Shown: positions 13,159-27,451 of the stretch, piece after piece
Numbering within the stretch: position 1 is the first letter of the stretch
Layout: each line of letters opens with the position of its first letter
Assembly (NCBI GenBank): GCA_000419465.1
Contig: ATTB01000002.1
Span: 22,125-79,078 of the forward strand
Source: an alpha proteobacterium SCGC AAA028-C07
Lineage (GTDB): Bacteria > Pseudomonadota > Alphaproteobacteria > Pelagibacterales > Pelagibacteraceae
DNA: 56,954 nucleotides
Direction: 5' to 3'
Program-made: the position numbers and the translations under genes
The notes under the pieces: generated by a model
Database searches by the model: none
Told to the model about the DNA's origin: nothing
The model's input: only the letters and a program-made list of their open reading frames with translations

Positions 13159-13860
13159 TTAACTAACATTCCAGCGATAGCCACTTCCATATCTTGTTTC
13201 AATTGCTGAAAATTTTGGATCAATCTTTTTAAATTTTTTTCTTATTCTTTTAACATGACTGTCTATAGTTCTGTCTTCAATGTCATTATCCTGCTTATAG
13301 GCAATATTCATTAAATAGGCTCTTTCTTTAACAACTCCAGGCCTTTTTGCTAACTCGTAAATAATCTTAAATTCAGTTGTAGTTAATTTATCGGGCAAAG
13401 TTTTTCCTCCCCATTCACATTCTAATTGCTCTGAGTCCAGGGTTAATCTTCCAACGGTTAAAATATTTTTTGGTTGTGAGGCAGTCTTAGGTTCTAACTT
13501 TCTAAATTGAACACGAATTCTCTCTATTAATACTTTAATAGAAAATCCACCAGACTTTTTAACATAATCATCAGCGCCTAGTTTTAATCCTAACAACTCA
13601 TCTACCTCATCGTCTTTAGAAGTTAATAAAATTATAGGTATAGAAGATTTTTTTCTTAATTTTTCTAATAATTCTTCGCCGTTCATTTTGGGCATCTTTA
13701 AATCTATAACTGCTAGATCAGGAGGATTACGCGTCATTCCGATGTATGCGCTTTCACCGTCAAGATAGGTTTGAACTTTAAATCCCTCATTCTCAAGCGC
13801 CATTGAAACGCTTGTTAAGATATTTCTATCATCATCGACTAGAGCGATTGTTTTATTCAT
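13159..13860 (-). CDS. chvI: ChvI-type OmpR-family response regulator
   Basis: A 233-residue regulator. The receiver domain (1-120) has ALVDDDRNI with the acidic pocket, the phospho-acceptor Asp near residue 53 (AVIDLKMPKMNGEE), a Thr at ILLTSKDDE and Lys at DDYVKKSGG. The winged-helix DNA-binding domain (about 135-230) contains LTTTEFKIIYELAKRPGVV and the recognition segment DRTIDSHVKRIRKKF. It is close in form to ChvI of rhizobia and Caulobacter. It is the first gene of the chvI-chvG operon; only 39 bases separate it from the polA stop. Confidence 0.88.
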   Translation of the reverse strand: MNKTIALVDDDRNILTSVSMALENEGFKVQTYLDGESAYIGMTRNPPDLAVIDLKMPKMNGEELLEKLRKKSSIPIILLTSKDDEVDELLGLKLGADDYVKKSGGFSIKVLIERIRVQFRKLEPKTASQPKNILTVGRLTLDSEQLECEWGGKTLPDKLTTTEFKIIYELAKRPGVVKERAYLMNIAYKQDNDIEDRTIDSHVKRIRKKFKKIDPKFSAIETRYGSGYRWNVS

Positions 13861-18262: not shown

Positions 18263-18688
18263 ATGTTCAAAAACCTTTTGGGTTCTTGGTATTTAAAAAA
18301 AAAAATATCGAATGGCTTTTTAGGCGAAGGTTTGGTGTTTTTAAAATCTAAAAAATTAAATAACTTTCATTATGAGGAAAAAAGCTTAATTCACAAAAAA
18401 GGTAATGGGAATGCAATATCTGGTTATCAAAAGTTTGATATCGTTGAAAATAAGAATTTTATAAAATTTTATTTTTTACTAGGTGATAAAAAAAATAAAA
18501 TTTATCAAAAATTTAATAACAACTTCAAAGAGAATCTTGTTTCTTGGTATTTTTGTAAAAAAGATACCTACAAAACATACTTAAGAGTTATAAATAATAA
18601 TTTATTTAAAATAGATCACTTAATAACAGGTCCAAACAAAAGAATATTAATACAAAATACTTATTTCAGGTCTTGTAAAAATAATTAG
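18263..18688 (+). CDS. DUF6314-like protein of unknown function
   Basis: A 141-residue, strongly Lys/Asn-rich protein with no signal peptide or membrane segment. Its layout resembles DUF6314: an opening GSWYLKKKI, a middle YEEKSLIHKKGNG (family: Y-E-G-L stretch), a paired-strand segment FIKFYFLLGD, and the ending HLITGPNKRILIQNTYFR, which fits the family's 'W.v.GP.K.y...t.Y.R' close. The predicted all-β pattern would give a lipocalin-like barrel. No biochemical role is known to me. It follows bioY by 21 bases and ends one base before the convergent regA. Confidence 0.5.
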   Translation: MFKNLLGSWYLKKKISNGFLGEGLVFLKSKKLNNFHYEEKSLIHKKGNGNAISGYQKFDIVENKNFIKFYFLLGDKKNKIYQKFNNNFKENLVSWYFCKKDTYKTYLRVINNNLFKIDHLITGPNKRILIQNTYFRSCKNN

Positions 18689-19255
18689 TTATTTTGGAGA
18701 TCTTTTTGAAAGTATTCTTTGAAGGGTTCTTCTGTGCATCTTAAGCCTTCTAGCCGTCTCAGAAACATTTCGGTCACACAATTCGAACACTCTCTGAATA
18801 TGTTCCCATTTTACCCTATCCGCAGACATTGGGTTCTCTGGAGGAATTGCTTTCTTATCTTTATCCGCCAACAAAGCGGCCTCTAAATCCTCGGCGTCAG
18901 CTGGCTTTGCAAGGTAATCTATGGCTCCTGATTTAACTGCCGCAACAGCCGTTGGAATGTTTCCGTAGCCGGTTAAAACTATAATTCTACTGTCAGCTTT
19001 GACCTTGTGGATCTCTTTAACAACATCCAGACCGCTCCCATCGTTCAGTCTAAGGTCTATAATGGCAAAAGCAGGGGCCGCAACTTTAACTTTTTGGTTT
19101 GCCTCAGCAACGCTAGAGGCTGAAGTAACTAAAAAACCTTTATTTTCCATGGCTTTTGAAAGCCTGTTTCGAAATGGATCGTCATCGTCCACTATGAGCA
19201 AAGATTTGTTCTCGAACTGCCCTAGATTCACTTTTGAGTTTAAAATTTTATTCAT
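18689..19255 (-). CDS. regA: RegA/ActR/PrrA global redox response regulator
   Basis: 188 residues. The receiver domain has LLIVDDDDPFRNRL, the phospho-acceptor Asp in AIIDLRLNDGSG, LTGYGNI and the unusual YLAKPAD switch region. A short linker leads to a Fis-type helix-turn-helix, RNVSETARRLKMHRRTLQRI, almost invariant in alphaproteobacterial RegA. RegA controls respiration, carbon and nitrogen genes in response to redox state sensed by RegB. The gene stands out in composition: lines near 18901 and 19021 count about 48% and 53% G+C against about 20-30% in flanking genes, with GAG, GCC, GAC and AAC codons instead of the local A/T-ending ones. Its kinase regB lies 4.3 kb away beyond the polyamine operon, facing it. 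Confidence 0.95.
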   Translation of the reverse strand: MNKILNSKVNLGQFENKSLLIVDDDDPFRNRLSKAMENKGFLVTSASSVAEANQKVKVAAPAFAIIDLRLNDGSGLDVVKEIHKVKADSRIIVLTGYGNIPTAVAAVKSGAIDYLAKPADAEDLEAALLADKDKKAIPPENPMSADRVKWEHIQRVFELCDRNVSETARRLKMHRRTLQRILSKRSPK

Positions 19256-19264
19256 CGAGACCTG

Positions 19265-19293
19265 ACTATAGTCCTTCCCGAACCTGATCTCAA
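19265..19293 (-). promoter_or_regulatory. Putative strong, near-leaderless promoter of regA
   Basis: On the minus strand, TTGAGA (19293-19288) and TATAGT (19270-19265) are 17 bases apart, each 5/6 to consensus. Only 9 bases separate the -10 box from the start codon, so transcription should begin at about 19258, giving a leader of about 0-4 bases. The -10 box lies inside the perfect palindrome GACTATAGTC (19264-19273), a possible autoregulatory site. This is consensus-based inference. Confidence 0.5.
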
Positions 19294-19424
19294 GCTAAGG
19301 TCACAGTGTAAAAAAAATTTCTCTTACCTAAAATAAATACTTTACAGAAATTAAAAATAGCTTTAATTCCCGACTCAGTTGGTTAATTAATAATAATTTT
19401 TTTAACAAAAGGACATAACAAGAA

Positions 19425-20615
19425 TTGAAAAAGTTTAATTCTGTTTCTGACTTAGTCAGAGAACTTCAGCCGGTAAATCCTGTATATTGTGTTCGCCCAG
19501 AAAGTATAAAACTGGCTTGCAATTTTTTTGTAAATAATTTTCCGGGGAAACCCCTATACGCTGTAAAAACAAATCCTCATAAAAGTGTTATCAAACACAT
19601 CTATCAAAATGGAATTTCAAATTTTGATGTAGCTTCTCTAGAAGAAATTAAATTAGTTAAATCGATTGCAAAAGATGCAAAACTTTATTTCATGCACACA
19701 GTAAAAAATAGAAAGAGTATTGAAGAAGCATATTTTAATTATGGTGTGAGAGATTTTTCTTTCGATACAAAAGATGAATTAATTAAAATTTTTGAAGCAA
19801 CTAAAGATGCGAAAGATTTAACTTTATATTTAAGAATATTTGTTTCGAACGAACATTCTGAAATTGATCTATCTAAAAAGTTTGGAGCATCTCCTACTGA
19901 AGCTATTGGGTTAATAAAATTAGTAAGACCGCTTGTTAAAAAACTTGGAGTAAGTTTCCACGTTGGTTCGCAGTGTATGCATCCAGTATCTTACTCAAAA
20001 GGAATTAAAGAAATTGGAAATATAATTGCAAAATCAGGAATTACGCCTGACATTATTAATGTAGGTGGAGGATTCCCGTCTAAGTATCCAGATTTATATC
20101 CTCAGCCATTAGAAAACTATATGGAAGAAATTAAAAAAGCAGTAAACAAATTAAATCTACCCAAACAACCAGAGTTAATTTGCGAACCAGGAAGAGCTAT
20201 TGTTGCGGAAAGTGGTTCTACTATTGTTAAAGTTGAACTTAGAAAAAAACAAAGTCTTTATATTAATGATGGAACTTATGGATCTTTATTTGATGCTGGA
20301 GTTCCAAATTTTATTTTCCCAACAAAAGTTATTGATACTGGAAAAGATTTAAGCAGACGCTTCACTCCTTTCAATTTTTACGGACCAACTTGTGATAGTA
20401 TGGATTTCATGAAAGGTCCTTACATGTTGCCAAATAATTTAAAAGAAGGCGATTATATCGAGATTGGACAATTAGGAAGTTACGGTTTAACTTTTAGAAC
20501 TAAATTTAATGGTTTTTACTCAGATGATATTTTTGAAATTGATGATAAACCAATAATGTCTGTTTACCAAAATGAACAGGACGAGGAATATAAAAGCAAT
20601 TATCTTGTTGCTTAA
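19425..20615 (+). CDS. Ornithine decarboxylase-like (fold type III PLP enzyme)
   Basis: A 396-residue alanine-racemase-fold decarboxylase. The PLP lysine is K48 in PLYAVKTNPH. HVGSQ (near residue 180) and INVGGGFPSKYP (near 210) form the phosphate and stacking sites, and CEPGRAIVAESG precedes the C-terminal β domain. The active-site cysteine motif is YGPTCDSMD, the ODC form rather than the CESGD of diaminopimelate decarboxylase. It most likely makes putrescine from ornithine, but with agmatine-processing genes downstream, arginine decarboxylation is an alternative. The start is TTG with AAAGGA about ten bases upstream; no better ATG exists before the conserved YCVRPESI. It is the first gene of the polyamine operon, overlapping the next start by 1 base. 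Confidence 0.85.
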   Translation: MKKFNSVSDLVRELQPVNPVYCVRPESIKLACNFFVNNFPGKPLYAVKTNPHKSVIKHIYQNGISNFDVASLEEIKLVKSIAKDAKLYFMHTVKNRKSIEEAYFNYGVRDFSFDTKDELIKIFEATKDAKDLTLYLRIFVSNEHSEIDLSKKFGASPTEAIGLIKLVRPLVKKLGVSFHVGSQCMHPVSYSKGIKEIGNIIAKSGITPDIINVGGGFPSKYPDLYPQPLENYMEEIKKAVNKLNLPKQPELICEPGRAIVAESGSTIVKVELRKKQSLYINDGTYGSLFDAGVPNFIFPTKVIDTGKDLSRRFTPFNFYGPTCDSMDFMKGPYMLPNNLKEGDYIEIGQLGSYGLTFRTKFNGFYSDDIFEIDDKPIMSVYQNEQDEEYKSNYLVA

Positions 20616-22546: not shown

Positions 22547-23609
22547 AAATCTGGCATCCTTGGGTTATAGAATGCCGGCAGAGTGGGAAAAGCAAAGCTC
22601 TACATGGTTAGCATGGCCACATAATAAAAATGACTGGCCTGATAAATTTGAAAATATTCCTTCAACTTTTGCTAAAATAGCTTCAGCCTTATCTAAAGTT
22701 CAAAACGTTGATATTTTAATCCAATCAAAAGCTGTTAAAAAAAATATTAAGAGAATTCTAATTAAAGAAAAAACAAACCTTAATAAGGTTAATTTTCATA
22801 TCATTAAAACAAATAGAGTTTGGACCAGAGATACAGGGCCTATTTTTCTAGTAAACGATCTTTTGAAAAAGAAGATCATGACAAATTTTCATTTCAATGC
22901 GTGGGCAAAATATAAAGATTACAATTTCGACAATAATATAAAGCCACAAATAGCAAAAATTAAAAATATAGAATTAATAGATATAAAAGCAAAAATTAAA
23001 AACAAAGTTAAAGATGTTATACTAGAAGGTGGTGCAATTGACGTGAATGGAAAAGGAACTTTAATTGCAACAAAAGAATGTTTGTTAAGCAAAGTTCAAG
23101 AAAGAAATCCTGGATTAAGTAGAGAAAAATTAGAAATAATCTTAAGCGAAAGTTTAAATATCAAAAATTTTATATGGCTTAATAAAGGTATTGTCGGCGA
23201 TGACACTCACGGTCATATCGATGACATCACTAGATTTTTTGATGATGATAAAATCTTTACAGCGATGGAATATCAAAAAAGTGATGAAAATTATTCAGCT
23301 TTAAATGAAAATTTAAAAATATTAAAAAGATCTAGAAATCACTTAGGCAAACAAAATACTATCGTAGAAATTCCAATGCCATCACCTTTAATTATAGATG
23401 ACACAAGAGTGCCTGCTAGCTACTTAAATTTTTATATAGCAAATAAAATTGTTCTTCTGCCAGTATTTGAAGATAAAAATGATGACAAAGCTTTTCAAAT
23501 TTTAGAAAAGCATTTTAAGGATAGAAAAATTGTTCCAATCAACTGTCGTGATCTAATTTGGGGATTTGGAGCAATTCACTGTATGACACAACAAGAGCCA
23601 GCTATATAA
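22539..23609 (+). CDS. aguA: Agmatine deiminase
   Basis: A 356-residue guanidine-modifying enzyme. It opens with YRMPAEWEKQSSTWLAWPHN, then has NRVWTRDTGPIF, VILEGGAIDVNG, the catalytic acid/His region GDDTHGHIDDITRF and the C-terminal nucleophile Cys in GFGAIHCMTQQEP. It converts agmatine to N-carbamoylputrescine, which AguB finishes. No agmatine-forming SpeA-type arginine decarboxylase lies in the window, so agmatine must come from elsewhere, from outside the cell, or from the small decarboxylase at the head of this operon. Its 3' end overlaps the convergent regB by 8 bases. Confidence 0.93.
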   Translation: MNENLASLGYRMPAEWEKQSSTWLAWPHNKNDWPDKFENIPSTFAKIASALSKVQNVDILIQSKAVKKNIKRILIKEKTNLNKVNFHIIKTNRVWTRDTGPIFLVNDLLKKKIMTNFHFNAWAKYKDYNFDNNIKPQIAKIKNIELIDIKAKIKNKVKDVILEGGAIDVNGKGTLIATKECLLSKVQERNPGLSREKLEIILSESLNIKNFIWLNKGIVGDDTHGHIDDITRFFDDDKIFTAMEYQKSDENYSALNENLKILKRSRNHLGKQNTIVEIPMPSPLIIDDTRVPASYLNFYIANKIVLLPVFEDKNDDKAFQILEKHFKDRKIVPINCRDLIWGFGAIHCMTQQEPAI

Positions 23610-24894
23610 GTTTTAAATTAACTAAATCTTTTTTCTTCCAAAATATATCAATTACAGCACCTTTATTTTCTAAATTATAGAAATTAATAACAGCAGATAA
23701 CTTTTCTAAAAAAACTTTTGCTATAAAAATACCAAGACCTAACCCTTCTTTATTATTATCTAGATCTCTTTTATTAATATAAGGCTCTCCTAAAAATCCT
23801 AATATTTGTTTTGAAAAACCTATACCATCATCTTCAACTTTTATTCTCAACTCATTTTCATTAGATAGTAAAAAAATTTCAATTTTATTTGAAGAAAATT
23901 TTACAGCATTATCAATGATATTCTTAAGACTATAAATAATCTCAATTTTTTTCGTAATTAAATAATCTTTTCTATAATCATCTATATTAATAGTAATTTT
24001 TTTCTTACTTAGATCTTTAAATGAATCTACAATTTCTTGAACGATAATTTTAAATGATGCTTTATCAAAAAATTTATCTTCTTTTTCCGTATAAGGATTT
24101 TTTGATATCTGCTTTAATATTTCGCTACATCTTTTTGATTGAGAAATAAGCAAATCTAAATCTTGATTAAACTTTTTATTTGACCCTATTTCTTTTTTTA
24201 ACTCTTTAGCAACTAACGATATCGTATTTAATGGCGTTCCTAATTCATGAGCTGCAGCGGCTGCCAGACCTCCTAAAGATTTTAATTCTTGCTCTCTTAA
24301 AAAGATCTGCTGTAAAACATTAAAAGCTTCATTTCTTTGTGCGCTTTCAATTGCTAATCTTTGTGAATAAATAGCTAAAAATATTATCGCTGTGCACAGT
24401 GCCAATGCTAATCCTAAAATATAAAACTTTGGAAAAAGGTAATTATTTTCGAGTCCAGGTAGTTCAAAATAAAAAAATGATAAAATAATAATTAACAGGA
24501 TTGATAAAAAACCTATCAAAATACTGCTTCTTAGATTTAGAAATCCTGCGGCAATTGTAATCGGAGCGACAATTAATATTGAAAAGGGATTGGTTAACCC
24601 ACCGGTTAAAAATAATAATCCGAATAACTGAAATAAATCATAGAGGATGCTAAAAGTGGCTTGTTTATTGGATAATAAGTCAGTTTTTTTTGATCTCAAT
24701 TGAAGAAAAATATTAAGAAAAGAAGAAAACAAAACTAATAAATAACAATGCCCAATATTAAAACTGAAATTAAAATAAAAATATACAATTGATATTGTTG
24801 CAAACTGTCCAAAAATCGCAACCCAACGAATATTGATTAGTGTTAAAAGTTTTATCTGATTATCATTTAGCCCTGGTAGTTTTGCTAAATTCAT
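23602..24894 (-). CDS. regB: RegB/PrrB/ActS redox sensor histidine kinase
   Basis: A 430-residue membrane kinase with about six N-terminal transmembrane segments (about 20-180). GGLTNPF at 98-104 matches the RegB loop implicated in quinone sensing. The H-box is AAAAAHELGTPLN with His216. Cys256 in QSKRCSEIL corresponds to the redox-active cysteine of RegB (Cys265 in Rhodobacter). The ATPase domain has NIIDNAVKFS, DDGIGFSKQ and GLGLGIFIAKV. It phosphorylates RegA under reducing conditions. Unusually, regA is not adjacent and no senC/sco gene accompanies it. gyrB ends 4 bases upstream of its start, so it may be transcribed from the gyrB side. Confidence 0.92.
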   Translation of the reverse strand: MNLAKLPGLNDNQIKLLTLINIRWVAIFGQFATISIVYFYFNFSFNIGHCYLLVLFSSFLNIFLQLRSKKTDLLSNKQATFSILYDLFQLFGLLFLTGGLTNPFSILIVAPITIAAGFLNLRSSILIGFLSILLIIILSFFYFELPGLENNYLFPKFYILGLALALCTAIIFLAIYSQRLAIESAQRNEAFNVLQQIFLREQELKSLGGLAAAAAHELGTPLNTISLVAKELKKEIGSNKKFNQDLDLLISQSKRCSEILKQISKNPYTEKEDKFFDKASFKIIVQEIVDSFKDLSKKKITINIDDYRKDYLITKKIEIIYSLKNIIDNAVKFSSNKIEIFLLSNENELRIKVEDDGIGFSKQILGFLGEPYINKRDLDNNKEGLGLGIFIAKVFLEKLSAVINFYNLENKGAVIDIFWKKKDLVNLKLI

Positions 24895-24898
24895 TAAA

Positions 24899-27451
<2,553 letters not shown>

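Follow-up and report, generated by a model that had tools for sequence, protein, structure and literature searches.

The window analysed here, 56,954 nucleotides in full, carries on its minus strand regA, the gene of a 188-residue response regulator of the ActR/PrrA/RegA type (18689-19255). The first-pass annotation had called the product a typical RegA and this holds, as the protein matches the equivalog model NF033791 over its full length at 309 bits (cut-off 250, residues 16-188). It contains a Response_reg and an HTH_8 domain, and in an alignment of 16 genomes the acidic pocket DDDD, the IDLRL motif with the phospho-acceptor aspartate and the C-terminal helix-turn-helix NVSETARRLKMHRRTLQRIL are conserved. 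The partner sensor kinase is encoded by regB (23602-24894, minus strand), whose product matches NF033792 at 436 bits (cut-off 350). Judged from its sequence the regA product is an ActR/PrrA/RegA response regulator, and its phosphorylation by RegB as well as redox control of its target genes are predicted. The receiver domain and the Fis-type helix-turn-helix are the same as in the RegA/PrrA/ActR regulators that work with RegB/PrrB/ActS in Alphaproteobacteria, with the kinase gene 4.3 kb away; compared with these systems only the DNA composition of this regA is unusual. At its 3' end regA abuts a convergent gene of the DUF6314 family (18263-18688, plus strand) with an ordinary GC3 of 0.218, which gives the GC-rich island a sharp edge. 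On the 5' side of the island lies a divergent diaminopimelate/ornithine-type decarboxylase gene (19425-20615, plus strand; GC3 0.179).

The GC-rich tract spans approximately 18710-19315; the final few codons of regA are AT-rich and the 60 nucleotides upstream of the gene (19256-19315, minus strand) belong to the tract. Their GC content of 0.45 compares with 0.234±0.080 for 151 upstream gaps, three of which reach 0.45, in agreement with the earlier claim that high G+C extends into the promoter. This region holds a promoter-like site, TTGAGA-17-TATAGT (19265-19293, minus strand), that ends 9 nt before the ATG and is largely conserved across nine close genus members; matches to the promoter consensus around regA are no more frequent than in shuffled sequences, and the match marks a candidate site. 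With the -10-like box this close to the ATG, the regA transcript is likely leaderless or nearly so. Within the promoter region (19256-19310), the block CCTTAGCTTG...GGAAGGACTATA is conserved among close genus members and may be a site for a regulator.

On the window regA has a GC content of 0.420, a GC3 of 0.381 and a fourfold GC of 0.316, against a mean GC3 of 0.201 (sd 0.031, maximum 0.293) and a fourfold GC of 0.188 for the other 53 coding sequences. The most GC-rich 300-nt window (0.473) and the most GC-rich 567-nt window (0.437) of the 56,954 bases both belong to regA, the best 567-nt window elsewhere reaching 0.399. The G+C counts given in the first-pass annotation are exact (29/60 at 18901-18960, 32/60 at 19021-19080 and 11/60 at 18481-18540), and its description of regA as a GC-rich island was borne out by sliding-window and codon analysis, in which the gene is the most extreme and lies outside the normal spread. 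Within 255 kb of the same genome regA ranks first of 253 ORFs after adjustment for amino acids (z 7.16, runner-up 5.35; observed 0.366, expected 0.169; sd of z among genes 1.38). Among 320 ORFs its scores by site class are 5.2 for NNY, 4.9 for NNR and 3.6 for fourfold sites; the combined NNR and fourfold score of 5.99 is the highest (runner-up 3.51) and twofold C is also high. These ranks are based on 255-320 kb out of an 847-kb genome. Codons ending in C and in G are raised about equally. The earlier statement on frequent codons stands for GAG (7/10), AAC (7/11), GAC (6/15) and GCC (7/22) and fails for CTG, which is infrequent (2 of 18 leucine codons). Part of the overall GC content comes from the RegA protein itself via codon positions 1 and 2; amino-acid content as the sole cause is ruled out, since the z score already adjusts for it, and chance is ruled out by a z of 7.2 together with recurrence in relatives. 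The compositional island at regA is real and limited to the gene, while the gene itself is ordinary.

A rule for all response regulators, or for regB, was rejected, since in the window GC3 is 0.239 for chvI and an ordinary 0.162 for regB. Separately, the gene of the ChvI-like response regulator (13159-13860) fits a model in which GC3 was once about 0.35 and decays to 0.22 within the genus (2dlnL 10.8), and it is a candidate second case of shifting composition. G000 and its sister G001 differ by 0.07-0.11 over regB (23401-24900) and by 0.01-0.05 immediately beside it, a jump that falls exactly on regB and likely reflects its import by recombination; a smaller rise, to 0.07-0.12, spans regA.

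We refer to the genus of the studied genome as g1 and to the second genus with a GC-rich regA as g2. Its nearest relatives among named genomes are SCGC AAA280-P20 and a MAG with the label ZH-13may13, which we take to be LD12 (Ca. Fonsibacter), freshwater SAR11, the latter from Lake Zurich; the studied genome belongs to this same genus. The earlier question whether sister genomes are also GC-rich at this gene can be answered, as all ten genus members compared show the excess. Their regA GC3 is 0.27-0.38, with neighbouring genes mostly at 0.13-0.27 and the lower values in G004 (0.28) and G007 (0.29). Adjusted z scores are 3.2-7.3 for the ten members of g1, which are non-independent samples, and 4.1-5.6 for g2; in other Pelagibacteraceae they are mostly -0.6 to 3.4. 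Of 92 loci, a number that counts some genomes more than once, 91% score above zero. This distribution shows that a slight excess in regA is common in the family and that a strong one is seen in two genera. Outside Pelagibacterales, regA GC3 in Alphaproteobacteria is close to that of the flanks at the readable loci, a motif filter having removed about half. A regional effect was rejected because the adjacent genes have a normal composition, also in G004 and G011, where regA has a different neighbour. GC-driven amino-acid change was not seen in RegA, the shares of GARP and FYMINK residues being alike across lineages.

Synonymous sites of regA turn over at an ordinary rate. Their divergence within g1 is ordinary to high (0.33 at fourfold and 0.23 at twofold sites), and 34% of synonymous sites are invariant, the fewest among nine genes (43-58% in the others). 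Divergence is near saturation, reaching 0.97 of the independent expectation between G000 and G006, the deepest member of g1, and 0.94 between G013 and G034 of g2; despite this, regA in all four genomes lies above its own background. GC positions are not shared beyond chance, neither within these pairs (z 1.0 and 0.5) nor between g1 and g2 (0.1-0.4). Saturated sites whose GC positions do not coincide indicate that the pressure is continuing and diffuse. A two-state model on 152 sites, which ignores rate variation among sites, gives regA an equilibrium GC of 0.255 against 0.11-0.20 for its neighbours and rejects 0.17 (2dlnL 6.2). Twofold sites are stationary at 0.36, and fourfold sites appear to decay from 0.38 at the root towards an equilibrium of 0.13. 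Codon-specific selection was rejected: the codon shifts in g1 and g2 have only the GC-ending class in common, with r 0.07 inside that class.

Recent transfer was among the causes first proposed for regA. Composition alone speaks for a recent arrival from a GC-richer bacterium, and regA resembles atypical genes of foreign origin in that its GC content and its codon usage depart strongly from the genome mean. Unlike such genes it has a vertical tree and a conserved gene order and is present throughout the genus as compared. In every Pelagibacteraceae genome compared it lies between bioY, with the DUF6314 gene present or absent, and the decarboxylase/polyamine genes. All nearest relatives of RegA are Pelagibacterales, and the protein tree keeps genera together inside the Pelagibacterales clade, where g1 forms a group with g7, g9 and g12 (support 100) and g2 branches in another part of the family. 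No RegA homologue was found in the phage records and viral contigs searched, and a phage origin was rejected on this ground. The gene order, the tree, the presence of regA across the genus and the saturation of its synonymous sites thus refute recent transfer, to which we give almost no credence, and regA is a vertically inherited core regulator. Separately, G003, a genome of the same genus that is 96% complete, yielded no RegA orthologue, its best matches being distant response regulators (E 1.9e-17 and 39% identity for the top one), and an orthologue is likewise absent from several f2 genomes (G040, G049, G052 and G059); some lineages may be able to do without regA. An older import, in which a GC-richer allele from an unsampled relative replaced regA and is slowly decaying to the genome average, would agree with the apparent decay of fourfold sites and with the lower values in G004 and G007. 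A composition left by one old event should however be gone at saturation, a state that the synonymous sites have reached throughout the genus and in g2. With twofold sites stationary, a vertical tree and two independent events required, we consider such a replacement improbable.

Gene conversion had also been proposed. GC-biased conversion, or a local bias of mutation or repair, at a short hotspot in regA is a possible cause if not a likely one. It would explain a shift that is codon-neutral and symmetric between C and G, extends to untranscribed promoter DNA and is ongoing without conservation of sites, and regA does reject the concatenated tree (AU p about 0.006). Yet nit, dhs and speC reject the same tree with ordinary GC3, nit even more strongly, and site incompatibility in regA is average, so that its recombination signals (tree conflict and incompatibility, taken from gene sequences) are at most equal to those of GC-normal neighbours. 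Conversion tracts usually measure hundreds to thousands of bases, which the edges of tens of nucleotides seen here do not fit. Biased conversion has been argued to be widespread in bacteria and to operate regardless of selection on codons, and the examples of Lassalle et al. (2015, PMC4450053) resemble regA in the codon-neutral GC enrichment of single genes, including non-coding DNA; they differ in that no link to recombination was seen for regA and its tract is gene-sized and sharp-edged. A very low recombination-to-mutation ratio has been reported for LD12 and much recombination for marine SAR11 (PMC4053759), a contrast that runs opposite to the distribution of the strong excess. Conflicting neighbours with normal GC3, sharp tract ends and the low recombination reported for LD12 leave the proposal of gene conversion unsupported. 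Translational selection for the optimal codons of a highly expressed gene is very unlikely. C-ending twofold codons are raised in regA as in codon-adapted genes, and slightly so in ribosomal-protein genes, but regA also raises G-ending and all fourfold GC codons, and its shifts, compared over 59 codons, are uncorrelated with those of groEL, dnaK and the ribosomal-protein genes (r -0.09). These genes, with a GC3 of 0.12-0.24, do not show the rise of GAG, ACG, AGG and GGG seen in regA. The pattern of a symporter (permease) operon, with fourfold C lowered, differs from that of regA as well. This operon (L035:14917-17021; C2 of the own genome, about 133,995-136,099; L178-L193 in relatives), presumably a DUF4212-like small subunit followed by a large symporter, has raised GC3 in all genera that carry it (0.28-0.33 in the large subunit), with NNY:C at 0.52 and ATC increased, and looks like a case of translational selection. 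Two forms of it, about 75% alike, occur in the genus, and the form of G000 is that of G004 (97%) and not that of closer relatives. Equally hard to credit is a constraint from an overlapping antisense gene or a structured RNA. An antisense ORF of 88 codons lies at 18999-19265, and nine of the ten genus members have an antisense strand free of stops for 83-119 codons; such long runs are a consequence of high GC. In G007 the run is interrupted, leaving 58 codons, and in g2 it is limited to 71-74. Of the nine genes compared, regA has the smallest share of invariant synonymous sites, and the antisense ORF gave no match in a Pfam search. Folding of the regA mRNA is no better than that of codon shuffles (z -1.2 to 1.7) and an Rfam search gave no match within regA.

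Among these explanations we tentatively rank selection on the overall composition of regA first, at somewhat less than even probability and with the cause unproven. A weak continuing pressure confined to regA would keep its synonymous sites, and in this genus also its promoter, raised in GC; selection would then act on the base composition of the transcription unit, not on particular codons or structures, for example through mRNA stability or through the exclusion of AT-rich sequence from the gene of a global regulator. The GC tract ends within tens of nucleotides on both sides of regA and the abutting genes are normal, and such sharp, gene-sized edges favour weak selection on composition over GC-biased conversion at the kilobase scale. 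Of the unusual selection on mRNA or DNA first proposed, the general idea remains by elimination, whereas no structure, conserved synonymous sites or antisense gene was found. No molecular target supports selection, as there is no conservation of synonymous sites and the mRNA folds in no unusual way. Also against it, fourfold sites taken alone look as if they were decaying (0.38 to 0.13), GC3 varies from 0.27 to 0.38 within the genus, and the excess is small or absent in most marine relatives, which can thus do without any function that high GC may have. Selection on the mRNA in particular is countered by the upstream GC, which lies outside the likely transcript and for which promoter elements may account.

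Compositional outliers in AT-rich genomes are routinely taken as transferred genes. In regA we find an outlier that is old, vertically inherited and apparently still maintained, and it is the same gene in two genera. That gene-specific selection for high G+C has opposed the genome-wide AT pressure on regA independently in two SAR11 genera is doubtful; if true, it would suggest that RegA production is under an undescribed form of control that depends on composition and acts, for instance, on how fast a leaderless mRNA decays. It is debated whether the base composition of streamlined aquatic bacteria is set by selection or by biased conversion, and regA offers a small and well-bounded test case in which LD12, with its low recombination, can be set against its highly recombining marine sister group.
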